This document shows, piece by piece, positions 1-17,404 of a stretch of 18,089 nucleotides of DNA (positions are counted from its first letter, which is position 1; each line of letters begins with the position of its first letter). The notes under the pieces are model-generated. The model was not told where the DNA came from, searched no databases, and was given only the letters and a program-made list of their open reading frames with translations. The stretch is taken from contig JAITBC010000326.1 in the NCBI GenBank assembly GCA_031283785.1, positions 1 through 18,089 on the forward strand, read 5' to 3'. The stretch is from Tannerella sp. GTDB taxonomy: Bacteria > Bacteroidota > Bacteroidia > Bacteroidales > Tannerellaceae. The translations under genes were made by a program, and so were the position numbers.

Positions 1-390
1 AATATATTAGCGAATTATGTACTAATGGACAGTTGGTTTGTAACCGATTTTATGTTGAAGTCAATACGTGAAATTAAAGGAGGACTGCTTCACGCTACGG
101 GTATTTGTAAGATGGATAAGCGTAAATTTGAAGTGAACGGAAAATTATATAACTCTCAGACAATCATAACCATGAATGAGAACAAAAGAGGCAGGCTGCA
201 CGCTTGCCGGAAATTCAAATCAAAGTACATGACGCTTGTCGCAACATACAGCGGAACACCGGTTAAACTGTTTTATATCAAGTACAAAAATGCAAATCGC
301 TGGACACTGTTGCTCACTGCCGATCTTTCCCTGTCCTTTGTAAAGGCGATGGAACTGTATCAAATCCGTTGGAGTATTGAAGTCATGTTT

Positions 391-446
391 AACCCACATT
401 GCAATTCACCGGATTATAAAATGCTGCAGATAAGTCAAGTCCATTT
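391..446 (+). repeat. 56-bp repeat, copy 1 (inverted partner at 6790-6845)
   Basis: Aligned by eye without gaps to the reverse complement of 6790-6845, 43 of 56 positions match. The core GATTATAAAATGCTGCA is identical in both, and both end in CCATTT. The repeat begins exactly where the transposase homology stops. In one frame both copies encode HC-x3-DYKMLQ, and on the opposite strand both encode LQHFII before a stop, so it may be a short coding remnant. Its origin is unknown; an IS end or a piece of a transposase gene are the main options. Confidence 0.6.
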
Positions 447-458
447 TCTCAAATTCCG

Positions 459-475
459 ATTTGTACACTACAAAT
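459..475. repeat. short perfect inverted repeat (hairpin)
   Basis: ATTTGTA and TACAAAT are exact inverted copies separated by CAC. CCG and CGG flank them with a small TTT bulge. It could form a small stem-loop in RNA from either strand. It lies about 270 bases past the end of the T9SS gene that reads toward it, so it might serve as a distal transcription end, but the stem is AT-rich and weak. Confidence 0.3.
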
Positions 476-495
476 TTTCGGTTTGTAATGGGTAA

Positions 496-741
496 CGGTT
501 TGTATTTGAGGCGTCGATAAACGGCATCGCCCCTGGCTGTCGGATCGCGCTGCACCGGCGGGTAATGATCATTTCATCATAGCGGTTTTTGAGATACGGT
601 CATAACATTTTTTGGGCGTTCATGATGTAGATTATTCTTTCTTTCACAAACCCTCAACGATGTGCGCAAAAGAGTACTTATGCCATCTTCTGCCTCGAAT
701 TTGGCTGATCCCGAATCCCATATCCGTATTGCGGCGGCATG
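496..741. other. non-coding debris between transposase remnant and T9SS gene
   Basis: No intact gene is seen here. On the minus strand there are broken protein-like stretches. One ends at 406-408 (TGA) and reads RGDAVYRRLKYKPLPI and then TNRKFVVYKSEFEKMDL. Upstream, in another frame, a stretch reads FVKERIIYIMNAQKML, a stop, then PYLKNRYDEMI. This looks like the decayed 3' end of a gene, but I recognise no family. CGGTTTGTA occurs twice (479 and 496), with a close third copy at 457. Confidence 0.35.
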
Positions 742-3609
742 CTAACGTTTGACGATTTTACCGACGCCACAGGTCGTCTTATCGCATATTTTGACAATAT
801 ACATACCTCCTGACAGTTTTGATATATCAATATTCCCATTGACATTCGAACTATACTGAGATAAAACCTGTTTCCCGGAACTGTCGAATATTTCAATGAC
901 AAGCGGTTCTTTTAACAGATTCGGCCATCTGAAATACAACAGACCGTTTACTGTCGGATTCGGGAAAAGCAGAAACTCCGTTGCCGGCGCCGGTTTAGGA
1001 GTAGAAGCGACGGAACTTTTCACTAAACGATAGTGCATCACATCGTTTTTCCCGGTATGAGGAAGGGTATAGCTCAATTCATAGGTTGCCGTTTCCGCAT
1101 CATACCATGCCTGCCACCAATCATTGCCGTGCACAGCCTGATTGACATTGATCCAGCTGTTGTTTTGCCATTGCTGCAATTGCCAACCGGAATATCCGGG
1201 AAGGTTTTTGACGGTTATCGGTACGTAACCGATTCCCCCGTTGACGGTAAAGTCACATACTACGTCGGCATCACCGCTTACAGCAATAATTTCGCAAGGC
1301 ATATGTTTTTCTACAACGCCCACCGTGGCGGTCGCTTTCATTTTGGTTTGAACGGCATATAAATGGCTTAGCCTCCATGAGGTGAAATCTTCCGCCGGCA
1401 TCTGGGTCAACACCTCACTCGGCCCGTAGTAGTCGTTTTTGCGAGCCGGCAGATTGATAAAGGCGACAGCGCCTTCCACGATGCTGCCGGCTGTGATCGT
1501 ATTTCCAACCGCAGCAGGGGGACACAATTCGATCAGCGCTCCGGAGACCATGGTATTGGTAGTCCGGATATTGAATGCCGGCTTATGGTATTCCGTCCCG
1601 TTCATCGTTGCCTTAAAATCCAAAACGGACAACACTTTGTTGGCGCCGGCCCCATCGGTTCCGGGATGAGGTTGTCCGCCCAGAAAGGCAAACCACATCC
1701 CGTCGCCTCCTACTTCAATTCGCTGCATGTTTTCGCTCAGCAAGTAAGCATTTACGGTCGTCTTGGGGACGTTAAACTCTCCGTTGAAAGCCTGTCTGCC
1801 GATGCTGAAACCGACGATTCCGGCGTCGTTGCCTGCCGCCATTTTGTTGTAAATCCCCACATTGTATTCATCGGCGCCGAATTGATAAAAAGCAAGACGG
1901 GAAAAAGACACATCCTTAAGGAAGATATATTTGAAGGAATGGACAACTTTAGAGGCGTCGTCGGTGCGGGGCATTTCGGCTTTATATTCCATTTCAATCG
2001 CTCCGTCGGAGGTGACTCCCGTATAAATGACTTCGGTCACCACCGGCCCCTGTTTTTTAAATTGTGTACGCATACGCGCGAAAGGTATTTTCGGCAGGTG
2101 ATCGGCGGTATGGTACACCAAGAAATCGGCTGCTCCTACATTGAGCGTCCAGTTATACCGTTCGTTGTTGACTCGTGAAGTGACGAGCGCAGGACATATA
2201 TCGCCCAGAAATGACCGTGTCCATGCCTGATTGACGTCATAACAGAAATTCTCGCCGAAAGAGCCTAATGCCGCCGTCTCCCACTGCTGGTGACCACCCC
2301 AGCAGACCAGACAAAGCTGGGCATGGCTAACGGCAAAGACATTGCCGTAGCGGGCAAAGGGACAGGTATAATCGTAACTGACGCTTTGCCCGGCAGGCAC
2401 TTCAATCAAGGTGTATCCGTGATACCACACACCTTCCCAGTTGCGGGCAGGGTCGTCCCACGGGCGGTTAGTACCGCCGCTGACGCTGTAGAAATGCCAA
2501 TTTTTCGTCAATTGCACCTGTACGCCGATAGGTTCTCCGGTTTCCGTATCGCTTAGGAAGGGAGACAATCCGGTGACCGGAAGCGGCTCGTCTTTGACGA
2601 ACTGCACCGGCACTCGAACGGTTTTGTCGCTGTGGTTGGTTAACGTGAAGGTAAGCCGATCGTATATATTTTGCTGTGCCGGATCGGAACTTTGACTGAC
2701 CATATTATTCAAAGAAATACTTTTATAGCCTGTCGCCGTGACATTGTCCGTCGGCTGTTGCCGTCCCTTATTAGGTGAAACCTGCACGGCGGACACGGTA
2801 ACTTTTTCGCGAGCGTCGTGCAGGGTTGCATCAGCGGAAGAGGCGTTGACGGACGGCAGGACGATTACCGAAAAGCCTGCGAATTTTTTAGCGGGAATAG
2901 TGATCCCGGCAGTGGTGAAAACTACGGTTTGGCTGTTCCTCGTAATAGTGGTGTTGCTGTTGTCGGGAATCATAAAGGTGATTCCCGACTGTCCCGCTTC
3001 GGTGACGGTAAGCGCCCGTCCGTTCATGCCGGTTATCCATTTGGAATAGGTATCGGGTAGCCGGATGGAGAAGGACAATTGCCCGTTATCGATCGAAACG
3101 GCGGAATGGATTTCAAAAGTGAGAGAAAGAAATTCCGGCATACAGGCTACTTCCATTCGCCCCCGCAAGTTGCTGTTACCTGCAAAAGTAAGGTACATCA
3201 GATCCAGTCGCTGCATGTACCGTCCGCTTTCAAGAATGCGAGTGGAATTATTACCTCCTTCTACCGCATCAACATTAAAGAATTTGAAAGATTGTCCGCC
3301 TACGGTAACGGAATAATCCATTTCTACTTCCGGCAGTGCGGCCATCATGCTGTTGTTCTGCGACAAAGCTTCGGTTTCCGAAGGAGACGACGTCAGCGCT
3401 CCCAGACGTACGATACCGCCGGCGACAGCGTCAACGGTCAAACCATAATAACCGGTCTGGATATTTACATGCCGTTTGTCGCCGTAGAAACCTTCGGCCC
3501 ACCACATGTAGGAATAATCCCGCACGGATGGTTACTGGATATAACTTTCGCCGGCGTCCATCCGAACCGCCAGGAAAACAATACAAAGAGAAGTGATTAT
3601 CTTTTTCAT
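742..3609 (-). pseudogene. large T9SS-sorted (type A CTD) secreted protein, nonsense codon after signal peptide
   Basis: The natural start is the ATG at 3609. It overlaps the rhamnosidase TGA as ATGA and begins an Sec-type signal peptide (MKKIITSLCIVFLAV). In that same frame codon 26 is TAA (3532-3534), directly followed by a long open frame that can restart only at a GTG (3525; 927 aa) or later. The continuation PSVRDYSYMWWAEGF has no signal peptide, so the stop very probably replaces a sense codon such as Tyr (TAT/TAC). The body is large and apparently beta-rich and I do not recognise its family; conspicuous segments are NRPWDDPARNWEGVWYHGY, HQQWETAALGSFGENFCY and GGQPHPGTDG. The last 80 or so residues form a typical T9SS type A sorting domain (LFPNPTVNGLLYF, IEIFDSSGKQVLS, LSGGMYIVKI, ending IVKR). 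Pairing with GH78 suggests a secreted carbohydrate-active or glycan-binding role, which is inference. Without the signal peptide the restart product could not reach T9SS. A sequencing error at one base is the alternative. Confidence 0.75.
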
Positions 3610-6272
3610 TTTGATAGATATAAATATGATATTTTATGTAATCCGCTTTCAACCGTAACGATATGGTCGCGATTGTCGGTCGATTTATTACCATTCAGGA
3701 TATATTCGCTTGTCTGTTCGGGTAAAACGACACATGCGACGCTCCCGTGAGGCACAGTTAAAGACAGTTCCATGACATTCCCGTTTAAAGTCCAGTCGAG
3801 GTTCAACCTGCCGTAAGGCGTATCTTTTGAGGTTTTTGCCCATGTAACGCCTTTCGGTATTTGCGGTTCGATCCATATTTTTCGATATCCGGGGTCGTTT
3901 TCGTCGGGTCTGATACCGCCGACAGCCTGATAAAACCACAGGCCGATCCCATTGTAGCAGTTATGAATCCTGCTTCTGCTCCAGGAGGTTTTCCAGTTTT
4001 CCCAATGTTCCCAAGTGGTGGTAGCTCCGTTTTCAATCATGTAGAGATAACCCGGATAGTCTTTCTTTTTCAACATGCCATAGATGAAATCCGGCCGGTT
4101 GTTTTTGATAGCCCATTCGGTAAGCACCGGAATACCGACAAGCCCGCAGAAAAAATGTCCCTTTCTATTTTCCGTTTCCCGGATCAGGCTTTGGGTCGTC
4201 ACGGGGACAAGAGGCGCCGGCGTAACTCCGGCAAGAAGTGGAAACGCCAGGTCGATCTGCGAGCCGGTGGCATAGATATGCTTATCTTCATCATAGAAAT
4301 GTTTGTGTATTTCTTCCTTCAACCGTTCATTGGCTGTCGCATAACGTTGGGCATCGTCGTTACGTCCGAGCCGTAAGGCGATTTTTTCCATCATCCCGTA
4401 GCAGGTGCTGATAAAACTGTTGCCGACCAGATCGACCGTTTGCCTGTCGCTCTGGTCTAATCCGTCCGGCCCTGCCCAATCGCCGAGATACCATTTGTCC
4501 GGCCAGGGTTCCAGTAATCCTTTGGGGGAATATTTTTCCACATAACCAAGCCAGCGCTGCATGGCCGGATAATATTTTTCAATCAGGCGCACATTCCCGT
4601 AGTGTAGGTAAGTTTGCCACGATGCGGTAATCATAAATCCGCTGTAGTAGGGACCTCCTCCGCACCAGTAGGGATAAGGAGCGGCATAAGGCAGCCATCC
4701 GTCGTCCCGTTGGCAATCCGCCCATGCCGCCAGCCAGTTGGTATAGAGCGGAGAAAGATTGAACATGGTTTGCGCGGTTGCAGTAGAAGCGCTGCCGTCG
4801 CCTCCGTATCCCAATCTTTCCAAATGGGGGCAATCTACAATTACTCCGCCCAGGCTCAAGCATTGAAGCGTGTACTGTATCATATCGTGGATAGCGTTAA
4901 GATCATTGTCGGAGCATTGAAATGAGGATGAATTTTCGAATCCGGTACGGATAAAATAACCCGTAATATGATCCGGGGAAAGCGCCGTTATCCCGGAAAT
5001 CCTGACGTACTGGAAACCGTGATAAGCGAATTTGTTGCAAAAATATTCTCTTTGCGCACCCGAGGCAACATAAATGTCTTTTTGCGCCTGATCTACCATT
5101 GTTCCGCTTTCATCCAGCTGATCGCCGTATGCTATTGTTATTTCCTGTCCCTTTTGCAAGCCGGCAAACTTGACGCCTGCCCATCCCGTCATGTTTTTGC
5201 CCATATCGACGAGCCATACGCTGTCGCGCAGTTTCTTAATGCCGGAAGGTTTGAGGCTGTCGGTGATGAAGTTGCTTTCCGTCATTTGCGGCGATACGAC
5301 GTGTTCCGGTGTCTGAACGACTGCGGCAGGGCGCCATTTCAGCCGGTCGAGGGCGGAAGCGCTCATGTTTGCAGGAACAGCGGATGCATCTACCCGCTCG
5401 CCTCCAAACTGCTGCCACTGCCAGCTCCCTATACTCGAAAAACCGCTTTCGGCCGCCTGCCACGACGTATCGGTATGACACAGGGCCCGCCATTGACCGT
5501 GCCGATACATATCCAGTCTCGCTTTTACCAAAGGGCCTTCATAAGCGCCGCCGGGCAATCCCGGACGATACCATCCCTGCCCCAGCCAGATGACAAGCTC
5601 GTTGTTTCCCCTGTTCAGGTAAGGACTTATGTCATAAGTCAGGTACAACGACCGCTTATCCATTTGCGTAACTGCCGGAACAAGCACCTGTTCGCCTACT
5701 TTTTCCCCGTTTAAATAAACTTCGTGATAACCCAGCGAATTGACATACAGGAGGCACTTTCCCTCTCCGTTCCATTCGAATGATTTTCGTAACAGGGGAC
5801 TTTGCGGGATTCCCGCATCTTTCGGGAATCCGATATAGGCGGCTTCCTGCAGTTCCGACGCCGACAGGGGCGTGCCGAAACACGCCGTTTGACTCCACTG
5901 CGACACCTCGTCCTTTTCATCCCATACGCGGACACGCCAATACACCAATATCCGTTCCATTAACGCTTCGCTTGACGGATAAGGCAACAAAACGGATGAC
6001 GACGAAAGCACTTTGCCGGTATTGCACAAATCGGCTTTGCCCTCTTGCAACAAAACGCTGTCGGTAGCCGCCAATATCTGGTAAGCCGTTTGCTTGCCGC
6101 CGTTTCTGTTAAAATATATCTTCCAACTCAAATGGGGAGTATGGCTGTCGACACTCAACGGATTCGTCAGGTTTTCGCAGCGAAGGTCATAGACGCTGAC
6201 AGGCGGCGGAGAATAATTCGCCACACAAGCAGCCAACAAAATACTTAAAGATAAGTACATAATTTTTGTCAT
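3606..6272 (-). CDS. GH78 family alpha-L-rhamnosidase, lipoprotein
   Basis: This 888-residue protein should remove terminal alpha-L-rhamnose from glycans. The N-terminus is a lipoprotein signal with lipobox LLAAC (Cys16); residues after the Cys (VANYS) lack the acidic surface-export signal, so a periplasm-facing anchor is more likely. An Ig-like domain follows (NLTNPLSVDSHTPHLSWKI), then the rhamnosidase N-terminal beta-sandwich domains (LYVNSLGYHEVYLNGEKVG, WLGQGWYRPGLPGG, DMGKNMTGW), the alpha/alpha barrel, and a C-terminal beta domain. The motif VDCPHLERLGYGGD at about residues 477-490 is the GH78 catalytic region, with Glu of DCPHLER the likely general acid. GATTTWEHW and SRSRIHNCYNGIGLWFYQ are also typical of the family, and the length is normal. 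The start at 6272 is preferred because Met5 would leave the signal peptide too short. The TGA overlaps the next gene's ATG (ATGA), so the two were probably co-translated. No SusC/SusD or regulator is next to it. Possible promoter: 6327-6356 inside the IS1 remnant. Confidence 0.93.
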   Translation of the reverse strand: MTKIMYLSLSILLAACVANYSPPPVSVYDLRCENLTNPLSVDSHTPHLSWKIYFNRNGGKQTAYQILAATDSVLLQEGKADLCNTGKVLSSSSVLLPYPSSEALMERILVYWRVRVWDEKDEVSQWSQTACFGTPLSASELQEAAYIGFPKDAGIPQSPLLRKSFEWNGEGKCLLYVNSLGYHEVYLNGEKVGEQVLVPAVTQMDKRSLYLTYDISPYLNRGNNELVIWLGQGWYRPGLPGGAYEGPLVKARLDMYRHGQWRALCHTDTSWQAAESGFSSIGSWQWQQFGGERVDASAVPANMSASALDRLKWRPAAVVQTPEHVVSPQMTESNFITDSLKPSGIKKLRDSVWLVDMGKNMTGWAGVKFAGLQKGQEITIAYGDQLDESGTMVDQAQKDIYVASGAQREYFCNKFAYHGFQYVRISGITALSPDHITGYFIRTGFENSSSFQCSDNDLNAIHDMIQYTLQCLSLGGVIVDCPHLERLGYGGDGSASTATAQTMFNLSPLYTNWLAAWADCQRDDGWLPYAAPYPYWCGGGPYYSGFMITASWQTYLHYGNVRLIEKYYPAMQRWLGYVEKYSPKGLLEPWPDKWYLGDWAGPDGLDQSDRQTVDLVGNSFISTCYGMMEKIALRLGRNDDAQRYATANERLKEEIHKHFYDEDKHIYATGSQIDLAFPLLAGVTPAPLVPVTTQSLIRETENRKGHFFCGLVGIPVLTEWAIKNNRPDFIYGMLKKKDYPGYLYMIENGATTTWEHWENWKTSWSRSRIHNCYNGIGLWFYQAVGGIRPDENDPGYRKIWIEPQIPKGVTWAKTSKDTPYGRLNLDWTLNGNVMELSLTVPHGSVACVVLPEQTSEYILNGNKSTDNRDHIVTVESGLHKISYLYLSK

Positions 6273-6326
6273 ACGATTATTTATTTTTTTAACTTGTTAC
6301 TACTAATATATTTCTGGTGGTGATTT

Positions 6327-6356
6327 AAAAAGTATGCTGATTCAAACAAAGCCAAA
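6327..6356 (-). promoter_or_regulatory. possible Bacteroidetes promoter reading out of the IS1 end into the rhamnosidase
   Basis: On the minus strand TTTG (6353-6356) is followed after 18 bases by TACTTTTT (6327-6334). The Bacteroidetes consensus is TTTG, about 19-20 bases, then TAnnTTTG, so seven of eight -7 positions match. It would give a leader of roughly 45-50 bases before the ATG at 6272. The -7 element is part of the terminal inverted repeat. AT-rich sequence makes chance matches likely. Confidence 0.35.
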
Positions 6357-6765
6357 ATTAATGTAAAAAAACGCGAGGTTAAAGGCCTTAAAATGATTGA
6401 ACAACATCTTTGAAAAACAGCAGGTTTTACGGAAAGCCCTGCGGATACGATGTCTCAGTCTGCAGTTATTTCCCTCGATACCAGCCGTATATTTCTTCCC
6501 CACAAGATGTTTTTCTCCCATGAATGTTGCTGTAAAACCATTCCAATCATCGGGTGGCAATACTTCCGCAGGTTACTTCCGAAGCCGACAGTTTTTTCTT
6601 CAAATTTCCGGCTGTTTTCAAGTCCCGTTTTCCCCAAACAAAAGCTGCGATTTCGCCCGTTGCTCTATGATAAGCATAGAGCAGTCTTACTTTCCTGCTT
6701 TTCCTGCCGGCATAAGTCCAAAGTCCGTCCACCTCCAAACAGGCATAATTGCCAAATTTTTATGA
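6342..6765 (-). pseudogene. IS1-family transposase (InsB-like), frameshifted remnant
   Basis: Read on the minus strand, the first segment is LEVDGLWTYAGRKSRK, YAYHRATGEIAAFVWGKRD, ending GSIAT. The second segment, in another frame, continues DDWNGFTATF, LVGKKYTAGIEGNNC, RLRHRIRRAFRKTCCFSK and AFFYINFGFV, and stops at 6342-6344. This is the IS1 InsB catalytic core with all three acidic residues: Asp of EVD (6727-6729), Asp of DDW (6546-6551) and Glu of GIEGNN. The frames join if one C is removed from the CCC run (GGG on plus, 6552-6554), so a single-base insertion broke the gene. A TAA also lies upstream at about 6760, and the N-terminal DNA-binding half is absent. The C-terminus is complete and abuts the terminal repeat, as in intact IS1. 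Confidence 0.85.
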
Positions 6766-6789
6766 CAGCATACCTTTTACATCACCACC

Positions 6790-6845
6790 AAATGGGCTTA
6801 CCCTGTTTGCAGCATTTTATAATCTGACGGACTGCAATGCTGGTT
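6790..6845 (-). repeat. 56-bp repeat, copy 2 (inverted partner at 391-446)
   Basis: On the minus strand it reads AACCAGCATTGCAGTCC onward and shares 43 of 56 positions with 391-446, including an identical 17-base core. It abuts the IS1 terminal repeat (6789) and lies 44 bases past the lpxB stop. Minus-strand sequence just upstream offers ATG ATT AAC CAG, so it may be the start of a broken small reading frame. The rest of 6846-6888 shows nothing recognisable. Confidence 0.6.
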
Positions 6846-6888
6846 AATCATTTCAACTCTTTTTACCCTGTATTCATAAGTGTAGAAA

Positions 6889-8253
6889 TTACAGACGTGG
6901 GGCGGACAAATAGTCTGTTATCAGTTTTGCCGTTCGCGTAGAAGCGCCGGGATCTCCCAGCAGGGAAATCACGCGGTCATAGTCTTTAAGCATCTTTTCT
7001 TTATATGCATTGTCTTCTATTATGCGCCGGAGTTCTTCGTAGATTCTCCGTCCGGAAAATTTTGCGCCGAAAAGTTCCTGTACGACTTGCTTCCCGGCAA
7101 TCAGGTTGACAAGGGAGATATATGGAACATGGAAAAAATGATCGAAAACAAAATTTATTAACCGCCCGCCCCCAATATAATAACAAACGACTTGCGGCAC
7201 GCGGAATAAAGCCGTCTCAAGTGTCGCCGTTCCCGAAGTAACTAATGCGACTGAGGCATGCTCAAGCAAGTTACAGGTTTGTCCGTAAACGATTTTTACG
7301 CCGAAATCATCGCCAGTCTGCTTGCCGACATCCTGCCCGCCGCCGGCCAACTGCTCACCGCCTGTTGCCGACTTGCCGACGACCTGTTCACCGTCTGTTG
7401 CCGCTTTGCCGACGACCGCCTGCACGCATGTTGCCGCTTTGCCGACATCCCGCCCGCCGCCGACGCCCGCCTGCCCGCAGCCTTTCGCTTTGTCAACAGC
7501 CGCCTGTTCACCGCCTGTTGCCGGCCGGCTTTTCAAAACATGCTTATAATCGTCCGGCGTCAGTCCGGGAGCGCCGGCTATGACTGGCTGGAATCCGGGG
7601 AATCGCTCCGCGACCGATAACATTGCAGGGAGGTTCTGCTTTATTTCCGCCTTCCGGCTTCCGGCGAGTATCGCTATAACAGGTTTGCCTGTCAGTCCGT
7701 GATCTTTTACGAACGTGTCCGGTTTGTTTCTTCCCGATTCGCGGAACGCCGAGACGGAATCTACCGATGGATTCCCTACATAGTCGACCGGATAATTGAG
7801 CGACTTGAAAAATTCCGTTTCAAACGGCAATATGCAAAACATACGGTCTACATACCGGCGAAACGACTTGATGCGATATTTTTTCCACGCCCATATCTTA
7901 GGCGATATATAGTAGTAAACGGGTATATTCAGCCGCGTTTTCACGAATTTCGCCATTTTCAGATTGAAACCGGGATAATCGACTAATATCACCACATCGG
8001 GATTATATGCGCGAATGTCTTCACGGCACATACGCATATTCCGCAATATCGTACGCAAATGGAGCAACACGGGGATGACGCCCATATATGCCGTTTCACG
8101 GTAATGCCCGACAAGCGTCCCGCCTTCGGAGCGCATCAGGTCGCCGCCGAAAAAACGAAAATCCGCCGTCAAATCTTCTTTTTTCAATGCTGCCATCAGG
8201 TTCGACGCGTGCAAGTCGCCCGATGCTTCGCCTGCTATGAGATAATATTTCAT
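6889..8253 (-). CDS. lpxB: lipid-A-disaccharide synthase with tandem-repeat insertion
   Basis: LpxB condenses UDP-2,3-diacylglucosamine with lipid X to form the lipid A disaccharide at the inner face of the cytoplasmic membrane. Family motifs are GEASGDLHAS at the N-terminus, VVILVDYPGFNLKMA, YYISPKIWAWKKYRIK, YVGNPSVD, ILAGSRKAEIKQNLP and VTSGTATLETALF. I chose the ATG at 8253 (protein MKYYLIAGEASGD, 454 aa), where family members begin. An in-frame GTG at 8277 would add eight residues. LpxB is usually about 380 aa. The excess is a Gly/Ala/Gln/Lys-rich block of about 75 residues (7303-7527) between DDYKHVLKS and VKIVYGQT in the C-terminal nucleotide-binding lobe, where relatives have a short loop. 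Every motif on both sides is intact and in frame, so the enzyme may tolerate it as a loop. It lies 46 bases downstream of surE, a common neighbour in this phylum. Confidence 0.95.
   Translation of the reverse strand: MKYYLIAGEASGDLHASNLMAALKKEDLTADFRFFGGDLMRSEGGTLVGHYRETAYMGVIPVLLHLRTILRNMRMCREDIRAYNPDVVILVDYPGFNLKMAKFVKTRLNIPVYYYISPKIWAWKKYRIKSFRRYVDRMFCILPFETEFFKSLNYPVDYVGNPSVDSVSAFRESGRNKPDTFVKDHGLTGKPVIAILAGSRKAEIKQNLPAMLSVAERFPGFQPVIAGAPGLTPDDYKHVLKSRPATGGEQAAVDKAKGCGQAGVGGGRDVGKAATCVQAVVGKAATDGEQVVGKSATGGEQLAGGGQDVGKQTGDDFGVKIVYGQTCNLLEHASVALVTSGTATLETALFRVPQVVCYYIGGGRLINFVFDHFFHVPYISLVNLIAGKQVVQELFGAKFSGRRIYEELRRIIEDNAYKEKMLKDYDRVISLLGDPGASTRTAKLITDYLSAPRL
7322..7525 (-). repeat. in-frame tandem repeats inside lpxB
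   Basis: On the plus strand five units each begin TTGCCGAC or the variant TTGTCAAC: 7322-7372 (51 bases), 7373-7405 (33), 7406-7438 (33), 7439-7489 (51) and 7490-7525 (about 36). The two 51-base units share TTGCCGACATCC, a variable base, then GCCCGCCGCCG; the two 33-base units share TTGCCGACGACC. The order is A-B-B'-A'-C. Every length is a multiple of three. On the coding strand the units encode VGK(A/S)AT(D/G)GEQ-like and GGGQDVGK-like peptides. The block is clearly richer in G+C than the rest of the gene. Growth by slippage or unequal exchange under reading-frame selection is the simplest reading. Confidence 0.9.
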
Positions 8254-8299
8254 TTTTTTAGCGAATAAGTAGATCACCTGATTACAGTGGATTGCGGCT

Positions 8300-9067
8300 T
8301 TATACGAATCGCTTTTTCAGCTCATTCATAAACGCGTAATCCGTTACATCCAGTTTGCAGGGTACGAGAGATGCATATCCGTTATTTAATAATGTTACGT
8401 CATTATCCGGATAATCCCGGCCTGTACGTTCATATTCGCCCGTAAGCCGGTATGCGGGCGCTCCGTTATCGTCCGTTTCACAGATATATTCGCGTACCCA
8501 CTTGCCGTCTGTCTGGCGACCTGTGCGCAGGCCTCCGACGACCGGGATATTCGGAATATTCAGGTTCAGATACGTACCGTGCGGCAAACCGTGTTTTAAA
8601 AGATGTTCGGCCAGGAGATGCGCATAACGGCAAGAGGCGGAAAAATCAGCACCGGGAACGTATCCATGCATGGACACTCCCACCGAAGGAACATCAAACA
8701 CACACCCTTCGAAAGCGGCGCCCATTGTCCCGGAGTAATGTACCGACAAAGCCTGATTCCCCCCGTGGTTAATACCCGACACAAGCAAATCCGGCTTACA
8801 GGGTAATATCTCGCTAACGGCAAGCTTGACGCAGTCGACGGGCGTCCCCGTGCAACTGTATACGGTCAGGCCTTCCTCCCGCCCGATCATATCATATTTC
8901 ACCGGTGTCGTTGTTGTTATTGCACACGACATCCCGGAACGCGGGCCATCCGGAGCGAACACTACAATGTCTCCCAAATCACGTAACGCCGCCGTCAGCC
9001 GCCGTATGCCTTCCGCATCTACTCCATCATCGTTCGAAATCAGTATAAGCGGTTTCTTTTTATTCAT
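8300..9067 (-). CDS. surE: 5'/3'-nucleotidase SurE
   Basis: SurE is a metal-dependent phosphatase that dephosphorylates nucleoside monophosphates, important in stress and stationary phase. The metal site is visible: ISNDDG (Asp13, Asp14), then [12 protein letters not shown] with the metal-site Ser, and [12 protein letters not shown] with Asn. [10 protein letters not shown] and [12 protein letters not shown] are also typical. At 255 residues it has the usual length. The ATG at 9067 is chosen; the TTG two codons earlier is not needed. The start overlaps the stop of a short upstream open frame (9060-9062). lpxB follows after 46 bases and the two are probably co-transcribed. Confidence 0.96.
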
Positions 9068-9190
9068 TTCCAAAATAGTTCATATCTATCATTTGCATCA
9101 GTCCGTTTTCAGGCTTCCGCTTCCAATCGTCACCTACTCTTACTTTCAACCCTCGACATTTGCAATCTCCGGTCTTCTTGCGGATGACTC
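9060..9190 (-). other. short minus-strand open frame leading into surE (possible gene remnant)
   Basis: Between the LRR gene stop and surE, one frame stays open and ends in TAA at 9060-9062, overlapping the surE ATG. It reads TGDCKCRGLKVRVGDDWKRK and then [17 protein letters not shown], a normal-looking composition for a soluble protein end. The frame has no ATG of useful length and continues upstream into the LRR gene in a shifted frame. It could be the tail of a lost gene, a coupled leader peptide, or chance. I recognise no family. Confidence 0.25.
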
Positions 9191-10813
9191 TTATTCGTCC
9201 CAATATCGGAAGGTTGCATAGCCTATATTATTGCGCGGTATAGAATGACCGCGGGTAATGTCTATATATTTCAGATTCGGGTTGTCATAGCACATCAGTA
9301 CATTCACCTTTTTATTTTTACGCAAATCCAGTGCCGTCAATGAACAATTTACACAAGACAACTGTTCCAGCTTCGTGAATGTGTCCAGATATAAGGTTTT
9401 TAGAGGACTGTCACTACATTTCAGATTGATAATATTCGGGCAGTTGTCTATGTTAAGCGCTTCACATCTGAATGTCGCTTCTTCAAGCGATGCACATCCG
9501 GAGACGTTTAGTGTCGCGAGCCGTTGACAGGCGATTATTTTCAATGCAGGACAGTTTTCTATATTTAACAATAACTGAGGCCTTAAATAATCTGCCCTGA
9601 CATCTTCCAGAGCAGGAAGATTCTTCAAGTCAACAGTAGCGGCTCCATCAAAATACGGATCTCTTATATATAATGTCCGAAGTGCCTTGCAGCGGCTCAG
9701 ATCCATCGGGATGTCAAGTACGGCGCAATCTAAATTCTCCAGCATAGTCTGGTTACTCAAGTCCAACATTTCCACGTTTTTTATCATCCAAAAACGCAAT
9801 GTTTTCAGTTTGCGCAGATTGGTTATGTCGCCAAGGATATTCCGGACGTCAACTTCTTCCAATTCGGTATTCTTCGAAATGTCAACATCTCCATACCGAT
9901 AGTACAGTTTTCGTAACGAAGTGCACGGACTTGCATCAAACGATTTATCACTCCCACTAATCACTATTGTATTTAAGGCAGTACACCCAGTCAGATTTAT
10001 ATTAGTACTTTCATAAGAGAACTCGCCTTTTAAACTGAGCTCCTCCAGCTTGTCACAGCCCGAAAGGTCGATTGAGGCCGGTAAAACGTCCATTTCGCAA
10101 TGCAGCTCTTTCAGTGGACTGACGCCGGTATCAATCGCTCCGATCTTTACGTACATCAAAATCAGTTTTTCAAGTGAACGGTAAGTCAATCCTGTTAATG
10201 TCAGGTTTACTCCGTGTCTATTATAGATGCATTGTAGCTCCCGAAGGTTTGTGTTGCGGCTCAGGTTTAAGGACGAGATTGTTGGATTTCGATTAAACGA
10301 CAACACCTGAAGGTTTGTGTTACCGTCCAGATTCAGTGACGCGAGGTTTTGGTTATCATTACAGTATAATACCAGAAGATTCGTATTGTTGCTTAGGTTC
10401 AGCGACTTGAGATAGTAGTTTTCGGAACAATTCAAACAGTTTAACGCCGTGTTCTTACTTAAATCGATGGATTCGAATTCACACCCATCACAAGTGAGCA
10501 ATACCAATGCCGTGTTTTGTGTCAGATCGAGGGCGTTAATTGGATTCCGACTACAATTGAGTGTTTCGAGCGCCGTAAAATACTGAATGCCTTTCAGCGA
10601 AGTGATTCGCCTGTCCGAGCAGTCAATATTGCGCACGGATTTTGCTTCGCGAAGACTGATTAAGCCGTCAGCGTCAGTGTCGAAGTTTTGCAACATATAC
10701 TGTTCAAACAGCAGGTCGGGGAAAGCTTCTCTTGAAATATTTTCAACCTCATCCCGGCATCCCGTTACTGCAAACAATAAAAGTAATAAATAAATAAAAC
10801 AGTTCGTTCTCAT
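9191..10813 (-). CDS. EF-hand and leucine-rich-repeat surface lipoprotein
   Basis: This is a 540-residue lipoprotein: signal peptide MRTNCFIYLLLLLFAVTGC with Cys19 as lipidation site, then RDEVE. The acidic residues right after the Cys resemble the lipoprotein surface-export signal of Bacteroidetes, so outer-surface display is likely. Residues 45-56 (DTDADGLISLRE) are a canonical EF-hand loop with Asp45, Asp47, Asp49, Ser53 and Glu56 as Ca ligands. Roughly 20 leucine-rich repeats of about 20-23 residues follow, of the pattern LxxLxCxxNxLxxLDLSxNTxL. They are regular in residues 60-200, degenerate in the middle and regular again near the end (LEQLSCVNCSLTALDLRKN). There is no T9SS domain. Such proteins usually bind other proteins or host surfaces; the ligand here is unknown. 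The gene is separated from yigZ by 155 bases with a possible promoter of its own. Confidence 0.88.
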   Translation of the reverse strand: MRTNCFIYLLLLLFAVTGCRDEVENISREAFPDLLFEQYMLQNFDTDADGLISLREAKSVRNIDCSDRRITSLKGIQYFTALETLNCSRNPINALDLTQNTALVLLTCDGCEFESIDLSKNTALNCLNCSENYYLKSLNLSNNTNLLVLYCNDNQNLASLNLDGNTNLQVLSFNRNPTISSLNLSRNTNLRELQCIYNRHGVNLTLTGLTYRSLEKLILMYVKIGAIDTGVSPLKELHCEMDVLPASIDLSGCDKLEELSLKGEFSYESTNINLTGCTALNTIVISGSDKSFDASPCTSLRKLYYRYGDVDISKNTELEEVDVRNILGDITNLRKLKTLRFWMIKNVEMLDLSNQTMLENLDCAVLDIPMDLSRCKALRTLYIRDPYFDGAATVDLKNLPALEDVRADYLRPQLLLNIENCPALKIIACQRLATLNVSGCASLEEATFRCEALNIDNCPNIINLKCSDSPLKTLYLDTFTKLEQLSCVNCSLTALDLRKNKKVNVLMCYDNPNLKYIDITRGHSIPRNNIGYATFRYWDE

Positions 10814-10850
10814 AGTTTTAATAAAAATGTTGTTCCCTGTTTAAAAACGG

Positions 10851-10881
10851 CAGAAATAATGAATTATTATATATACTCAAC
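10851..10881 (-). promoter_or_regulatory. possible promoter of the LRR lipoprotein gene
   Basis: On the minus strand GTTG (10878-10881) is followed after 19 bases by TATTTCTG (10851-10858), a 7 of 8 match to TAnnTTTG with normal Bacteroidetes spacing. The start codon at 10813 lies 37 bases further. The rest of the 10814-10968 gap is AT-rich; I see no other gene or clear hairpin in it. Confidence 0.35.
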
Positions 10882-10968
10882 TCTGAATTCATTTACTTAG
10901 AAAACTATACTTTTGTCCAGGCATAAGCGCGGTATACGGAAAACTATGTTCCTTATGATAAGCATATA

Positions 10969-11595
10969 TTACTCTTTAATGTAAGCCGTTTCGACTTTGA
11001 GAAGACGATTCCTGAGATTTTCGAAAAGGCTGCTGCGGATACGCAACGTCATCTCGCAGGTCATCTCAAACGTTTGGGATACGATTTCCGGCTGTTCTTC
11101 CTTTACGATTCGCATTATGCCGTTAAGGTGCGGATATTCGAAGGCGACCGTCAGTTCGCCGTCGACCGTGCGTTCTTCTGTTTCTGCGGCCGCAATCGCT
11201 CCGGCTGCTGCCGTACGATAAGCGACAATCAGTCCGCCTGTCCCAAGTTCGATACCGCCGAAATAACGGACGACAATCACCAGGATATCCGTCAGTTCAT
11301 TGGAATTTATTTGCCCCAGAATCGGTTTGCCGGCTGTCGACGACGGTTCGCCGTCGTCGTTCGTCCGAAACGTTTTACGGTCGGCGCCCAGCATATACGC
11401 CCAGCATACATGCCGCGAATCATAATATTCCTTCCGGTACTCCTGCACATGCCGCTTCACCTCCTCCGGCGTCCTTACAGGCATGGCAAACGACAGGAAA
11501 CGGCTTCGCTTCTCCGTATAATATCCTTCCGATAAACCTTTTATTGTCTTATAAGTATCTTCCGCCATTCGCATAACATCATTTCCATCCGGCAT
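10969..11595 (-). CDS. YigZ / IMPACT family protein (UPF0029)
   Basis: About 208 residues. The N-terminal Impact domain is clear: DTYKTIKGLSEGYYTEKRSR, HVCWAYMLGAD, the signature DGEPSSTAGKPIL, and VRYFGGIELGTGGLIVAYR. The C-terminal part is the usual ferredoxin-like DUF1949-type domain (FEYPHLNGIMRIVKEEQ). Members occur in most bacteria; eukaryotic IMPACT regulates Gcn2 and the bacterial role is not firmly established. The start is uncertain: TTG at 11604 would overlap the upstream TGA, the ATG at 11595 lies five bases after it, and ATGs at 11574 and 11568 are nearer the conserved DTYKTI. GGA lies 9 bases before 11574. In all cases it is tightly coupled to the 72-aa gene. Confidence 0.93.
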   Translation of the reverse strand: MPDGNDVMRMAEDTYKTIKGLSEGYYTEKRSRFLSFAMPVRTPEEVKRHVQEYRKEYYDSRHVCWAYMLGADRKTFRTNDDGEPSSTAGKPILGQINSNELTDILVIVVRYFGGIELGTGGLIVAYRTAAAGAIAAAETEERTVDGELTVAFEYPHLNGIMRIVKEEQPEIVSQTFEMTCEMTLRIRSSLFENLRNRLLKVETAYIKE

Positions 11596-11600
11596 ATGTT

Positions 11601-11819
11601 TCAATCCGGTATATGCGTTTCCTGTTCTTCGCCGAATGCGCGAAAATCTTTCATAATCTCCTCGATCTCCTCAATAAAATAAGGGTCTTTCACTTTACCT
11701 TTGACCATTTCATAATATTTTTCGATAGCCGGAAGCGCACAAATATCTTTACCGCGAAGCAGAAAATAAGGTTCTTCATTTTCTACGCATTGCTTAATCA
11801 TCTGTATCGGATTTTTCAT
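11601..11819 (-). CDS. small uncharacterised protein upstream of yigZ
   Basis: A 72-residue acidic soluble protein beginning MKNPIQMIKQCVENEEPYF, with LLRGKDICALPAIEKYYEM in the middle and a Glu-rich helix-like stretch (IEEIEEIMKDF). No signal peptide, membrane segment or known motif is seen. It is credible as a gene because it fills the space between uvrA and yigZ on the same strand, has an ATG after an A/T-rich leader, and its TGA sits against the yigZ start. The name of its family is not known to me. Confidence 0.75.
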   Translation of the reverse strand: MKNPIQMIKQCVENEEPYFLLRGKDICALPAIEKYYEMVKGKVKDPYFIEEIEEIMKDFRAFGEEQETHIPD

Positions 11820-11887
11820 AAGAATAAATCAATTAAAAATTTAAACAAAAACATTTCCCTTTATCACCAAACTTTATCAGCTAACCT

Positions 11888-14740
11888 CTATACATTAACC
11901 CCTTTAAATTCCGTTTTCAAAAACCGGGCAGTATAGTTCTCCGTTTTTGTTGCGACGAATTGTTCCGGCGTCCCGGCAAAAAGCACGTAGCCTCCGCGTT
12001 GTCCGCCTTCAGGTCCCATATCAACGATATAATCGGCAGATTTTATCATATCCATATTATGTTCAATAATAATGATCGTATTTCCTTTGTCGACAAGTTT
12101 GTTCAGCACTCCGAGCAACACCCTGATATCGTCGAAATGCAGTCCTGTTGTGGGTTCATCGAGAACATACAGTGTCTTCCCCGTATCGCGTTTCGCCAGT
12201 TCCGTCGCCAGTTTGACGCGCTGACTTTCGCCTCCCGACAAGGTTGTCGACGGCTGGCCGAGTTTAATATATCCCAGTCCTACATCCTGCAGAACCTTGA
12301 TTTTATTCAATATGGCAGGCACATTCTCAAAAAACTCGACGGCCATATTGATCGTCATATCCAGCACTTCGGCAATCGACTTACCGCGAAAACGCACTTC
12401 CAGCGTTTCCCGGTTATACCGTTTGCCGTGACAGTCATCACAGGGGACGTATACATCCGGAAGGAAATTCATTTCTATCGTTCTGTAACCATTCCCCTTA
12501 CAGGTTTCGCATCGTCCTCCCGAAACATTAAAAGAAAAACGTCCGGGTTTATAACCGCGTATTTTTGACTCCGGCAGTTCTACGAACAAATTCCGTATAT
12601 CGGAAAACACTCCCGTGTAGGTAGCCGGGTTACTGCGCGGCGAACGTCCGATCGGGGACTGGTCTACGCTGACGATTTTATCCGTATATTCTATCCCTTC
12701 TATGAATTCACATGGCAACGGCAATTCCGTCGAGCGGTAAAAATGCCGGCCGAGAGCAGGCCGCAACGTACCGTTTATCAATGTAGACTTACCGCTTCCG
12801 GATACTCCCGTAATACAGATCATCGTACCTAAGGGAAAAGATACGTTTATATTTTTCAGGTTATTCCCGCTTGCGCCTTTCATCGTCAGGAAATGCCCGT
12901 TACCTTTCCGCCTTATTGCAGGTATTTCGATCGACTTGCGGCCGTTCAGGTATGCCGACGTCAGGGTATCGGTTTTCATCATCTCCTGCGGCGTACCGGC
13001 AAAAACCACTTCACCGCCGAGGCGTCCCGCCTTCGGACCCATGTCGATCACATAATCGGCATTAAGCATCGTATCTTTATCATGTTCGACGACAATCACC
13101 GAGTTCCCGGCATCGCGCAAATCTTTCAACGAGTTGATAAGGCGCACGTTATCGCGCTGATGCAGTCCGATACTCGGCTCGTCGAGGATATAAAGCACAT
13201 TCACCAAGCGGCTGCCTATCTGGGTAGCAAGGCGAATACGCTGGCTTTCGCCTCCCGACAGTGTCGCCGACGCCCTGTTGAGCGAAAGATAGTCAAGCCC
13301 TACGTCAAGGAGAAATTTCAACCGCGAACGTACTTCTTTCAATATCTCCGCCGCAATCTTTTTTTGCTGCCCTGACATCTTATCATCGACCGACATCATC
13401 CATTTATAAAGTTCCGATACGTCCCATTCCGACAGTTCGACAATATTCTTACCATCTATACGGTAATGCAGCGCTTCTTTATTCAGGCGTTGCCCGTTAC
13501 ATTCGGGACATACGGACGTGCTGATAAACTGTCCCGCCCATTTCTGCGCCGACAGCGACGCGTCGTCTTCCTGTTGCATCAATATGTATTTGGCGACGCC
13601 TTCATACGACAAAATATAGTTCGAACTGCCTATATATTCATTCTGTATATGCAGGCGTTCGTCCGTTCCGTTCATTATCTCGTCGATTGCATCATCCGGC
13701 AAATCCCGTACAGGCGTGTTGATGGTAACGCCATGCTTCTTACAAAGCGCATCAATCTGCCAAAAAATCATGGAGTTCTTATATTTGCCGAGCGCAACAA
13801 TCCCTCCGCCGTAAATACTGAGGGAAGGATCAGGCATAATCTTGTTCATATCCAGAATATTAATCGCGCCTAACCCTTTACAGCGCGGACAAGCCCCATG
13901 CGGCGAATTAAACGAGAAGTTATGCGGGGCAGGCTCGCTATACGAAATCCCCGTCACTGGACACATAAGGCGACAGCTGTAATATCGCATCTCGCCGCTA
14001 TGGACGTCAAGCAGAACGATAAGTCCGTCGCCCTGTTTCATGCCCACCCGCAGGCTCTTTTTAAGGCGTTGATTTTCCGAACCGGAAACAATCATCTTGT
14101 CGATCACGATTTCTATGCTGTGCATTTTATAGCGGTCGAGCTTCATCCCGTGGCGTATCTCTTCAACGTTCCCGTCGACACGGACATTCAGATAGCCTTT
14201 TTTACGAATCTGCTCGAACAGTTCCCTGTAATGACCTTTACGATTCCGCACGACCGGCGCGAGGATATACATTTTACGATCCTTATAATCTTTCAGGATA
14301 AGCTCCAATATCTGTTCTTCGGTATATTTGACCATCTTCTCGCCGCTCAGGTAAGAGTAAGCTTCGCCGGCACGCGCATATAGAAGACGCATAAAATCAT
14401 ACACTTCGGTTGTCGTTCCCACCGTAGAACGGGGATTGCGGTTGGTCGTTTTCTGTTCAATCGAAATAACGGGACTTAACCCGCTTATTTTATCGACATC
14501 CGGCCGTTCGATATTACCGAGAAAATTACGCGCATAAGCGGAAAAAGTCTCTATATAACGTCGCTGTCCTTCGGCAAAAATCGTATCAAAAGCAAGTGAT
14601 GACTTACCGCTTCCGCTCATGCCGGTAATAACCGACAGTTTATTGCGCGGGATATCCACATCTATATTTTTCAGGTTATGGACGCGCGCCCCCTCAACGG
14701 AGATAAATCCGCTTTCCTTCATTTTTTCATTCTCATACAT
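11888..14740 (-). CDS. uvrA: excinuclease ABC subunit A
   Basis: UvrA is the damage-recognition ATPase of nucleotide excision repair; a dimer loads UvrB onto lesions. The 950 residues have the usual length and order: Walker [20 protein letters not shown] (about 40-58), [18 protein letters not shown], the zinc-module region ending [17 protein letters not shown], signature [17 protein letters not shown] and Walker [17 protein letters not shown]. The second ATPase half has Walker [12 protein letters not shown], a zinc finger ([14 protein letters not shown] to [12 protein letters not shown]), [18 protein letters not shown] and [13 protein letters not shown]. In the first zinc module the expected CPxC reads CPVTG, which I believe is common in this phylum. 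The start at 14740 is the first ATG; Met7 (14722) is possible. The genes before and after it on the minus strand are 87 and 68 bases away. Confidence 0.98.
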
Positions 14741-14827
14741 TTCACATTTTCTCTTTCTTCATTCGCCAATATCCTATCCGCAAAATCCGGCAAACCTTAT
14801 GAACCTTCTTTTTATTCCGCGCCTCCT

Positions 14828-15796
14828 TCATCGTACAACCCAACGCTTATCGTGCACATATGTACTGCCCGTATTATAATACAAATTATTTTCATCCGGT
14901 ATCAGTATTTTATATGTCCCGCCACCGGTCACAAGTTTCGAATCTTTCAACCACGGATTGAAAGATTTCAGGTCATAATAAGTGATTTCATATTTACGGG
15001 CAAAATCCGCCAGATCGGCAATATCTTCTTCAATCGAAACTTCCCGACAGTTTACCGGACGGTAAAGATTCTCCGCTCTAAGAATAAACCCGTATTTATA
15101 CGGATTCTCAAAAATCTGTTTTACGGCAAAAATACGGTACGGATACCGCAATGATTCTTCTGCCAGATACAAATTAAGGGCGGAAGTCTCCTGCTGTTTT
15201 TCTATCTGCCCCGATATACGCCCCATTCCGGCATTATACGAAGAAGCGACGGCCACCCAATCGCCGTATTTACCATAAGCTTCTTTAAGATATTTACATG
15301 CGGCTTCGGTCGCTTTCGCCACATTACGCCGTTCATCGACCGTAGCCGTTATACGGAGGCCGTAACTCCTGCCCGTGCTTTCCAGGAACTGCCACATCCC
15401 CACCGCACGGGCCGGCGATGTAGCCGTCGGGTCGAGATGACTTTCTATAACGGCAAGGTATTTGAAATCATCCGGAATGCCGTTCGCTCTCAGAATCGGT
15501 TCGATAATAGGGAAATAACGGTTTGCCCGCTTTATAAGCAACATCGTTGTTGAATGGTTATAGATGAAACCGTTCAACTCACGGTCCATCCCTTCGTGCA
15601 TATTATAACGGGTGAGATCGGTTCTTTTCCCGCAAAAAAAGATATAAGAAGGTGTTTCCGGCGAAACCGTAAAGGATGCTACAACGGGCGAATCTTCCCC
15701 GACGGCAACGGAATCTCTGTAGCCGACAAGCAAAAATACCGTCAGGCAGATGATGCTCGCCGTCAGAAAAGCTGTTATTACATGCAATATTTTCAT
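14828..15796 (-). CDS. MltD-like lytic transglycosylase (SLT domain)
   Basis: This 322-residue protein cleaves the glycan strands of peptidoglycan with formation of 1,6-anhydro ends. An N-terminal hydrophobic segment (about residues 5-25) serves as signal or membrane anchor. The SLT domain spans about 95-235: catalytic Glu118 in [12 protein letters not shown], then [19 protein letters not shown], and [10 protein letters not shown] at about 185-193. After it, residues 255-300 ([20 protein letters not shown], then YKILIP) form a single LysM-like module, fewer than in many MltD proteins. It lies 86 bases downstream of the T9SS type-B gene and 87 bases upstream of uvrA, so it could be part of a long unit. 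Confidence 0.92.
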
Positions 15797-15882
15797 TTCA
15801 TTCCATTATTTTTATTTTTATGATACGCCTCCATGCAAATCAACCGCTACCATTCGCCTGTAGTGGGACAACTCCCTCTGTC

Positions 15883-17256
15883 TTATTCTACGATATCCGT
15901 TTTCATATCCGTCCTTCTCGTACGGAACACGTTCACATCGCCTTTCTTCATACGCCTCCGCCCGTCCGTCCCCGTATATTCTATCAGATAATAATATGCT
16001 CCGGCAGGCACATATTCACCCCTGTATTTACCATCCCATCCCTGCGACGGATCGGTCCAACGGAACAATTCGGTACCCCAGCGGTTAAAAATACTTCCCC
16101 TGAAATCCATTACGGATTTATATCTGACCCTGAATATATCATTGATACCGGGAGTAACGCCGGGAGAGAACGCGTTCGGTATCTCCATCACCGTCTCCGT
16201 AATTGCTATATCAAAGCTGTTTTCTTCCGTACAATCTCCCGAACGACTGATTGCTTCCACCGTTATTCTATATTTACCTTCACGGTCGAATGTATATACC
16301 AGTTCTTCCGCGTTAAAAAGAACGTCGGGAGAGGGATTCTCATCTTTAAAGATTTTCCACGTAATCAATGATGCCACAGGTATATTGGCATAAGCGCGAA
16401 ACGTCACATACGCAGGCGCCTGCAATTCGCCTTCCGGGGCATCCGCACCGGCGGCAGCGCCGGGAGAAGCGACTGCCGTATCGCTATAAAGTTCAATCGC
16501 TTTCGCCTCGTAGAGGGATATGGTCGCCGACTTCTCAATGCCGAAGTGACGTGCAAACATATCGCCCGTCAACGTGATCTCCGTATCCGTCAGTATCAAC
16601 GGGAAATTTCGTTCGGCAGACGACGAAGGCATAAACGATGTGGCAAAGGGATGCGTATCAAATGTTTTCGAAACGTGCTCCGGCGAAAAACTTTTCGTTG
16701 CGTCATTCCATACCAGCGTCTCGTAACTTAATTCAAAAATGCGTTTTACCCTTTCCGGCGCGCCTGCCGGCGTATAATATACCATATCCGCCAGATCGGC
16801 GTCCCCTTCAAAACGTATCCCTACACATTCGTCAATTTCCGGAGATACATTGAAACGCCGTATATCAAATGCATATTTGCTATAATCAATAATCCACACA
16901 TAGCGCCTCATCGACCCCTCGTCGACATAATAACCGTATCCGTCTTCAACGTCCGAAATCATAGAAGTCGTACCGTCCTGCACCGCGGACACCCTTTCGG
17001 GGTTATTAAAATCCGGTTTCGTCCGGTAACGACACCACTGATGCGACGTCGACGACGAAGTATAACTTATCTGCACATTTTCCGTCCCATAAACGAGATA
17101 CACCTGTATCCTGTTACTGCTGTTATCGTCCGCCAGAATCGGCGTCCCTCTTCCTCCCGTCACCTTATAATATTCTATCTGCTGGGCAGGCAAAGCGCAG
17201 GTAAACAACAGAATTGCGGAAAGCACATGAAATCTTCTTCTAATATCCATAAACAT
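15883..17256 (-). CDS. T9SS type-B cargo protein (gliding motility-associated C-terminal domain)
   Basis: A 457-residue exported protein. The signal peptide is near MDIRRRFHVLSAILLF with cleavage about LPA-QQ. Residues about 30-255 are an unrecognised beta-rich region. A short Ala/Gly/Pro-rich linker (about 262-275) leads to a PKD-like Ig domain (about 278-352; VYTFDREGKYRITVEAIS). Residues 358-445 are a type-B T9SS domain: IPNAFSPGVTPGINDIFRV, FNRWGTELFRW, WDGKYRGEYVPAGAYYYLI and MKKGDVNVFR. A basic/acidic 12-residue tail follows, longer than usual for this domain. The protein should cross the outer membrane by T9SS; its target is unknown. The first ATG is 17256; Met3 (17250) also gives a good signal peptide and fits better with the close promoter. 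Confidence 0.88.
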   Translation of the reverse strand: MFMDIRRRFHVLSAILLFTCALPAQQIEYYKVTGGRGTPILADDNSSNRIQVYLVYGTENVQISYTSSSTSHQWCRYRTKPDFNNPERVSAVQDGTTSMISDVEDGYGYYVDEGSMRRYVWIIDYSKYAFDIRRFNVSPEIDECVGIRFEGDADLADMVYYTPAGAPERVKRIFELSYETLVWNDATKSFSPEHVSKTFDTHPFATSFMPSSSAERNFPLILTDTEITLTGDMFARHFGIEKSATISLYEAKAIELYSDTAVASPGAAAGADAPEGELQAPAYVTFRAYANIPVASLITWKIFKDENPSPDVLFNAEELVYTFDREGKYRITVEAISRSGDCTEENSFDIAITETVMEIPNAFSPGVTPGINDIFRVRYKSVMDFRGSIFNRWGTELFRWTDPSQGWDGKYRGEYVPAGAYYYLIEYTGTDGRRRMKKGDVNVFRTRRTDMKTDIVE

Positions 17257-17269
17257 AAAAAAAAGTTTC

Positions 17270-17301
17270 CAAAGTTACGGATAATATCCGTCAATAGCAA
17301 A
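17270..17301 (-). promoter_or_regulatory. near-consensus Bacteroidetes promoter
   Basis: On the minus strand TTTG (17298-17301), a 20-base spacer, then TAACTTTG (17270-17277). Both boxes match the Bacteroidetes consensus TTTG / TAnnTTTG fully. The first ATG (17256) is only 13 bases past the -7 box, so the leader would be very short. It probably drives the type-B T9SS gene and perhaps the transglycosylase and uvrA genes behind it. The rest of 17257-17404 is AT-rich and shows no gene. Confidence 0.6.
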
Positions 17302-17404
17302 TTTTACAATATCGGAAATCTATTTTTGAGGTGCTATTGATTTTTTTGATCCGTTATTCCGAAAAAATCATTGTTTTTGTACCGACATAAAAAAACGGTT
17401 TCAT

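Follow-up and report, generated by a model that had tools for sequence, protein, structure and literature searches.

Palindromic coding repeats, among them the palindromic amphipathic repeat and the Rickettsia palindromic elements, are scattered among genes, and the Rickettsia elements form an extra in-frame peptide within ordinary proteins. The available part of PMC2996958 describes the palindromic amphipathic repeat in similar terms, as an extra in-frame peptide within ordinary proteins. In-frame differences in repeat number inside coding genes of bacteria are the subject of the available part of PMC2639597. Here we describe a comparable repeat block inside lpxB, the gene for lipid-A-disaccharide synthase, on an 18,089-nucleotide stretch of DNA from Tannerella sp. 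(GenBank assembly GCA_031283785.1, contig JAITBC010000326.1, positions 1 to 18,089), hereafter called the window. Compared with the cases in that part of PMC2639597, the host is a core enzyme of lipid A synthesis and a single interior loop has been hit in many lineages. Unlike the palindromic coding repeats, the LpxB block had no palindrome (positions 7100-7700 were scanned) and showed no convincing dispersal among the matches listed in 10 relative genomes. A variable-length LpxB loop was not reported in the titles or abstract openings of the open-licence papers listed. We consider it likely that the block fills an exposed loop in which repeated tandem duplications in frame are tolerated, and that it is mostly neutral padding on a working LpxB.

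The gene and the parts of its repeat block are as follows, with the units in the order of the protein.

6889..8253, minus strand: lpxB, lipid-A-disaccharide synthase, 454 amino acids; ATG at 8253, stop codon at 6889-6891; open reading frame (ORF) call and Pfam LpxB match (E 1e-65, two stretches)
7294..7545, minus strand: whole variable segment, residues 237-320 (84 residues), between invariant Y236 and conserved I321
7315..7527, minus strand: repeat block proper, 71 codons, residues 243-313, 68.5% guanine plus cytosine (GC); ends with QT at 7315-7320
7489..7527, minus strand: unit C, RPATGGEQAAVDK, 39 nucleotides, 13 codons, first in the protein
7438..7488, minus strand: unit A', AKGCGQAGVGGGRDVGK, 51 nucleotides, 17 codons; 34/51 bases identical to A
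7405..7437, minus strand: unit B', AATCVQAVVGK, 33 nucleotides, 11 codons
7372..7404, minus strand: unit B, AATDGEQVVGK, 33 nucleotides, 11 codons; 24/33 bases identical to B'
7321..7371, minus strand: unit A, SATGGEQLAGGGQDVGK, 51 nucleotides, 17 codons

On the plus strand the units follow each other as A-B-B'-A'-C (51, 33, 33, 51, and 39 nucleotides), the reverse of their order in the protein. The original prediction had read a tandem-repeat insertion with this order from the sequence; the order held, and the length of unit C was corrected from about 36 to 39 nucleotides. Head-to-tail copies in the block exceeded chance. The best self-match was at a shift of 33 nucleotides with a net score of 42, a value reached by 0 of 200 codon shuffles (mean, 11.9; maximum, 19). 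The Tandem Repeats Finder score of the block, 120, was the highest in the window, where no other array scored above 54. The paired copies are degenerate, at the identities listed above, and 24 nucleotides within A and A' are 96% identical. The block was rightly described as GC-rich: its GC content of 68.5% compares with 48.3% in the remainder of lpxB and 47.4% in the window, and third-position GC was 69% as opposed to 53% in the rest of the gene. The reading frame is unbroken across the 213 repeat bases. An in-frame GTG is also present at 8277, ahead of the lpxB ATG.

Two plus-strand ORFs run antisense over the block at 7245-7583 and 7258-7620 (112 and 120 codons). They were rejected as genes, with no Pfam match for the first and a best E value of 0.063 for the second, and are probably a by-product of the GC-rich sequence of the block. 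An Rfam scan of the window returned 0 structured-RNA matches at the gathering score.

The protein belongs to the LpxB family. Profile PF02684 matched it with an E value of 1e-65 in two stretches, the best at residues 4-218, and Escherichia coli LpxB aligned to residues 4-215 and 312-407. These two sequence-matched stretches are 96 residues apart in the window protein and 30 in the E. coli enzyme (PDB 5w8n, 5w8s, and 5w8x; available part of PMC5785501). We took the catalytic and uridine diphosphate (UDP)-binding residues of E. coli LpxB from the same part of that paper and made our own assignment of their equivalents by motif matching in the alignment. The equivalents E9, S11, D92, G198, S199, R200, T342, and E346, together with N383, were invariant columns in 74 aligned proteins, in agreement with the earlier statement that the LpxB motifs are intact. 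The position of E. coli P198 is alanine in the window protein and likewise in the consensus of the 74.

The closest comparison at the DNA level is with a Tannerella sp. metagenome-assembled genome (MAG), Cc175_bin96 (locus L001; its LpxB is protein P0003), which shares the gene order around lpxB. Between the two LpxB cores, the synonymous rate (dS) was 0.47 and the nonsynonymous rate (dN) was 0.05, for a dN/dS of 0.106; the neighboring genes gave 0.091 (UvrA), 0.192 (transglycosylase), and 0.144 (CHU_C-domain protein). These ratios indicate that the LpxB core is under purifying selection, from which we infer enzyme activity, and lpxB is most likely a working gene. The nearest genome (G001) holds one LpxB match. 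Judged by its closest relatives, the window resembles a contig of the Tannerellaceae, and sample codes point to a possible termite-gut origin. An assembly artefact or a decaying gene might also yield such a block, and the allele does come from one contig. This is nevertheless the least probable of the explanations that we considered, given the intact frame over all repeat bases, the low dN/dS of the core, and the presence of related repeats at the same residue in two relatives on separate contigs.

We next compared the length of this site, delimited by alignment columns, among 139 LpxB proteins including that of the window. The set comprised the best 120 of 8,000 scored proteins and 19 new ones from a second such list, both ordered by similarity to two queries with long loops; P0121, the L001 translation, was left out. 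Lengths ranged from 9 to 84 residues, with 25 distinct values: 9-12 residues in 101 proteins, 13-15 in 5, and 16-84 in 33. The 84-residue segment of the window is at the top of this range and, as predicted, takes the place of a short loop, since most of the compared relatives are without an insert. Long loops are poor in the residues VILMFWYC (16%, versus 41% in the core).

Length also shifts between close relatives, where the proposed alignment was to look for it. P0002 and P0003, the proteins nearest to that of the window, have 89.5% and 89.7% core identity to it and carry 38 and 74 residues at the site; their units, SAAGGEQ and ATGGEQ for example, are related to those of the window. The RPATGG of unit C is also present in P0002. 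Proteins P0035 and P0029 share 97.6% core identity and have 26 and 11 residues, respectively, the longer loop being a 15-residue duplication. Other close pairs differed by 19 versus 9 residues (95.9% core identity) and 34 versus 12 residues (95.7%). Near-identical cores (96-98%) can thus have loops 10-22 residues apart, in pairs among which no other strain of the window's species is represented. A quick tree was built for 74 proteins with the loop columns removed; it requires at least 18 changes between long (at least 18 residues) and short loops and is approximate, with 20 of its 70 inner branches open. The 74 were chosen from the 120, partly for length diversity, and the frequency of long loops was hence taken from the 139. 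The alignments indicate that the insert is not fixed family architecture, and the one length common to all close relatives that would have spoken against the original prediction was not found.

The mutational route is partly readable from the loops themselves. Internal or upstream duplication exceeded shuffled sequences (P ≤ 0.01) in 10 of the 33 long loops, where 0.3 was expected, and six of those ten (P0003, P0079, P0124, P0111, P0074, and P0083) copy the upstream APGLTPDDY region. The Cc175_bin96 protein resembles that of the window in having 90% core identity and a segment of 74 residues at this site that contains the units SATGNKQVVWDK, SAAGGEQGAKK, and PTVGGEQNADK. It differs in unit number and in a second feature not found in the window, the duplication of LTPDDYKQILEN as LTPDDCRQVLDS 24 residues on; in the DNA, 37 nucleotides are repeated with 81% identity at a shift of 72 nucleotides. 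We propose that in-frame tandem duplications recur at the loop, copying either the loop itself or the adjacent GLTPDDY segment, and that they would arise by replication slippage or unequal recombination, slippage being the presumed route. In the lineage of the window, a unit of 11 residues, xATGGEQxxGK, and a derivative of 17 residues would have multiplied into the 84-residue segment. The copies would afterwards drift by point mutation and then shrink away or grow again.

The same data bear on the idea that the block is a dispersed mobile repeat inserted in frame into coding genes, as are the Rickettsia palindromic elements. The block is GC-rich and foreign-looking, and GEWRVESGEWRV-like peptides, which we take to resemble a dispersed repeat, occur at the same LpxB site in some other lineages. 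However, 0 inverted repeat pairs were found in 7100-7700, and the duplications in relatives copy local lpxB sequence. A query with the block against 10 relative genomes returned, among the matches listed, only fragments shorter than 50 nucleotides (best E 0.013), and a query against plasmids returned only short GC-rich fragments (best E 0.6). A mobile coding repeat is therefore disfavored, and we hold it to be very improbable. As a separate observation, the loops of P0026, P0048, P0029, and P0035 hold GEWRVESGEWRV or MENGEWRV peptides, as if the loop had also acquired such sequence; we presume that these peptides resemble a GA-rich dispersed repeat.

As an exposed, disordered segment remote from the catalytic residues, the loop would tolerate tandem duplications. 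In a predicted structure, 264 of the 454 residues had a predicted local distance difference test (pLDDT) score of at least 90, and the score fell below 50 over residues 247-314, between a helix at 233-241 and a strand at 320-323. The block is thus modeled as a disordered excursion in an alpha-to-beta connection of the C-terminal, nucleotide-binding domain, consistent with the looping-out that the original prediction proposed to look for. Judging by strand topology, it would lie at that edge of the sheet which is remote from the residues binding the nucleotide. According to the available part of PMC5785501, E. coli LpxB is proposed to bind the membrane through a face of its N-terminal domain. 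With the block modeled in the C-terminal domain, the earlier suggestion of a role in membrane association found no support, and no result favored the suggestion that loop length tunes activity or partner binding.

A selected function would give the loop a different meaning. It could be a disordered tether on which another protein of the lipid A pathway or the envelope docks, or it could modulate the LpxB dimer in a length-dependent way, with copy number making the adjustment. Expansions in many lineages have retained the frame and a hydrophilic composition, and ATGGEQ-type units are common to the window and two relatives, so that the motif has been retained for some time. On the other hand, different lineages fill the site with unlike sequences, most relatives are unexpanded, and the repeat copies diverge at amino acid-changing positions. 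No common binding motif was apparent by eye, without any motif search. We regard such a tether as unlikely. Still less likely is a contingency-like dial, in which repeat number would set dimer behavior or partner docking and selection would keep the lability. Should loop length prove functional, lipid A synthesis would have an unexpected dial.

Tolerated duplication on a working enzyme remains our preferred explanation, with loop growth probably near neutral, and LpxB would be an otherwise rigid protein with one hypervariable interior site and probably an ordinary function. Several observations weigh against it. At P = 0.01, 23 of the 33 long loops had no duplication, including that of the window's relative P0002 (P = 0.354); these loops may have arisen in other ways or decayed fast. 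The dN/dS of the loop was 0.213, but its alignment is unreliable and its dS saturated (2.2); between repeat copies, the values were 0.64 over 11 codons and 1.70 over 17. Expansions are rare in genome collections. Among 54 loci with a readable loop, 52 had 9-11 residues, and only L001 (74 residues) and L002 (20 residues) were longer. Among 30 loci from the genus, 28 had 9-12 residues, the other two coming from the L001 and L002 genomes; of the 41 genus genomes, 34 had a match and supplied these loci, and they overlap largely with the genomes of the 54-locus set. Expansion is patchy, most known cases being metagenome proteins; the high expansion rate leans on such proteins, some of which may be misassembled. 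Finally, the C-terminal tail of LpxB was at least 5 residues off the modal length in 31 of the 139 rows. Thus, the loop is the sole labile interior part of the protein and not its sole labile part.

A tail of this kind was seen in LpxB of another Tannerella sp. MAG, Md513_bin134 (L007, 4867-4920), where the C terminus carries a tandem repeat, KRTPPSSSLRTPPSSSLR (RTPPSSSL), and the loop has only 9 residues.

The natural series of loop lengths from 9 to 84 residues in one core enzyme is a usable test bed for the growth of disordered loops in folded enzymes, whether neutral or not. It also suggests that annotation error does not explain the long LpxB forms of these bacteria, which would be real genes.

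We then evaluated how local the lability is. Within LpxB, the loop had insertions of at least 5 residues in 33 of the 139 rows, and two further interior sites had such an insertion, each in a single row; the same rows contained no interior deletions of at least 5 residues. The gene directly upstream served as a control:

8300..9073, minus strand: surE, Pfam SurE

SurE had no interior insertions or deletions of at least 5 residues in 121 aligned rows and differed in length at its ends only. Between the window and L001, five neighboring genes, SurE (253 residues), YigZ (207), UvrA (950), the transglycosylase (322), and the CHU_C-domain protein (457), aligned over a total of 2,189 residues with 0 gaps, as opposed to 22 gaps in LpxB. 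A 927-residue ORF was left out of this control, and the rhamnosidase and the leucine-rich repeat protein of the window had no match in L001. Since the neighbors were free of gaps and the SurE interior was free of such changes, the length lability is local.

In-frame repeats are, however, not confined to LpxB in the nearest genome. A 216-kb sample of G001 contained 4 coding arrays with a period divisible by 3 in frames of at least 200 residues, versus 6 in the 814 kb of L001-L055. The LpxB block is therefore less novel, and a lineage-wide tendency to in-frame repeats may contribute to it. One such stretch of G001 (contig C70; L108, 4040-4130) looks like an in-frame array spanning a gene boundary: a BioB-BioA-fusion-like frame ends in ESDAVCESDAVCE repeats that overlap the start of a BioF-like frame, both names coming from our own reading of the sequence.

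On the plus strand, the gene cluster of the window has fragmentary ORFs on either side. Those at 6397-6827 include a part, 6397-6762, that had no Pfam match and gives no more than the impression of a decayed insertion sequence. The other flanking ORF, at 25-495, matched a DDE transposase family with an E value of 0.0059, too weakly to pass the cutoff.
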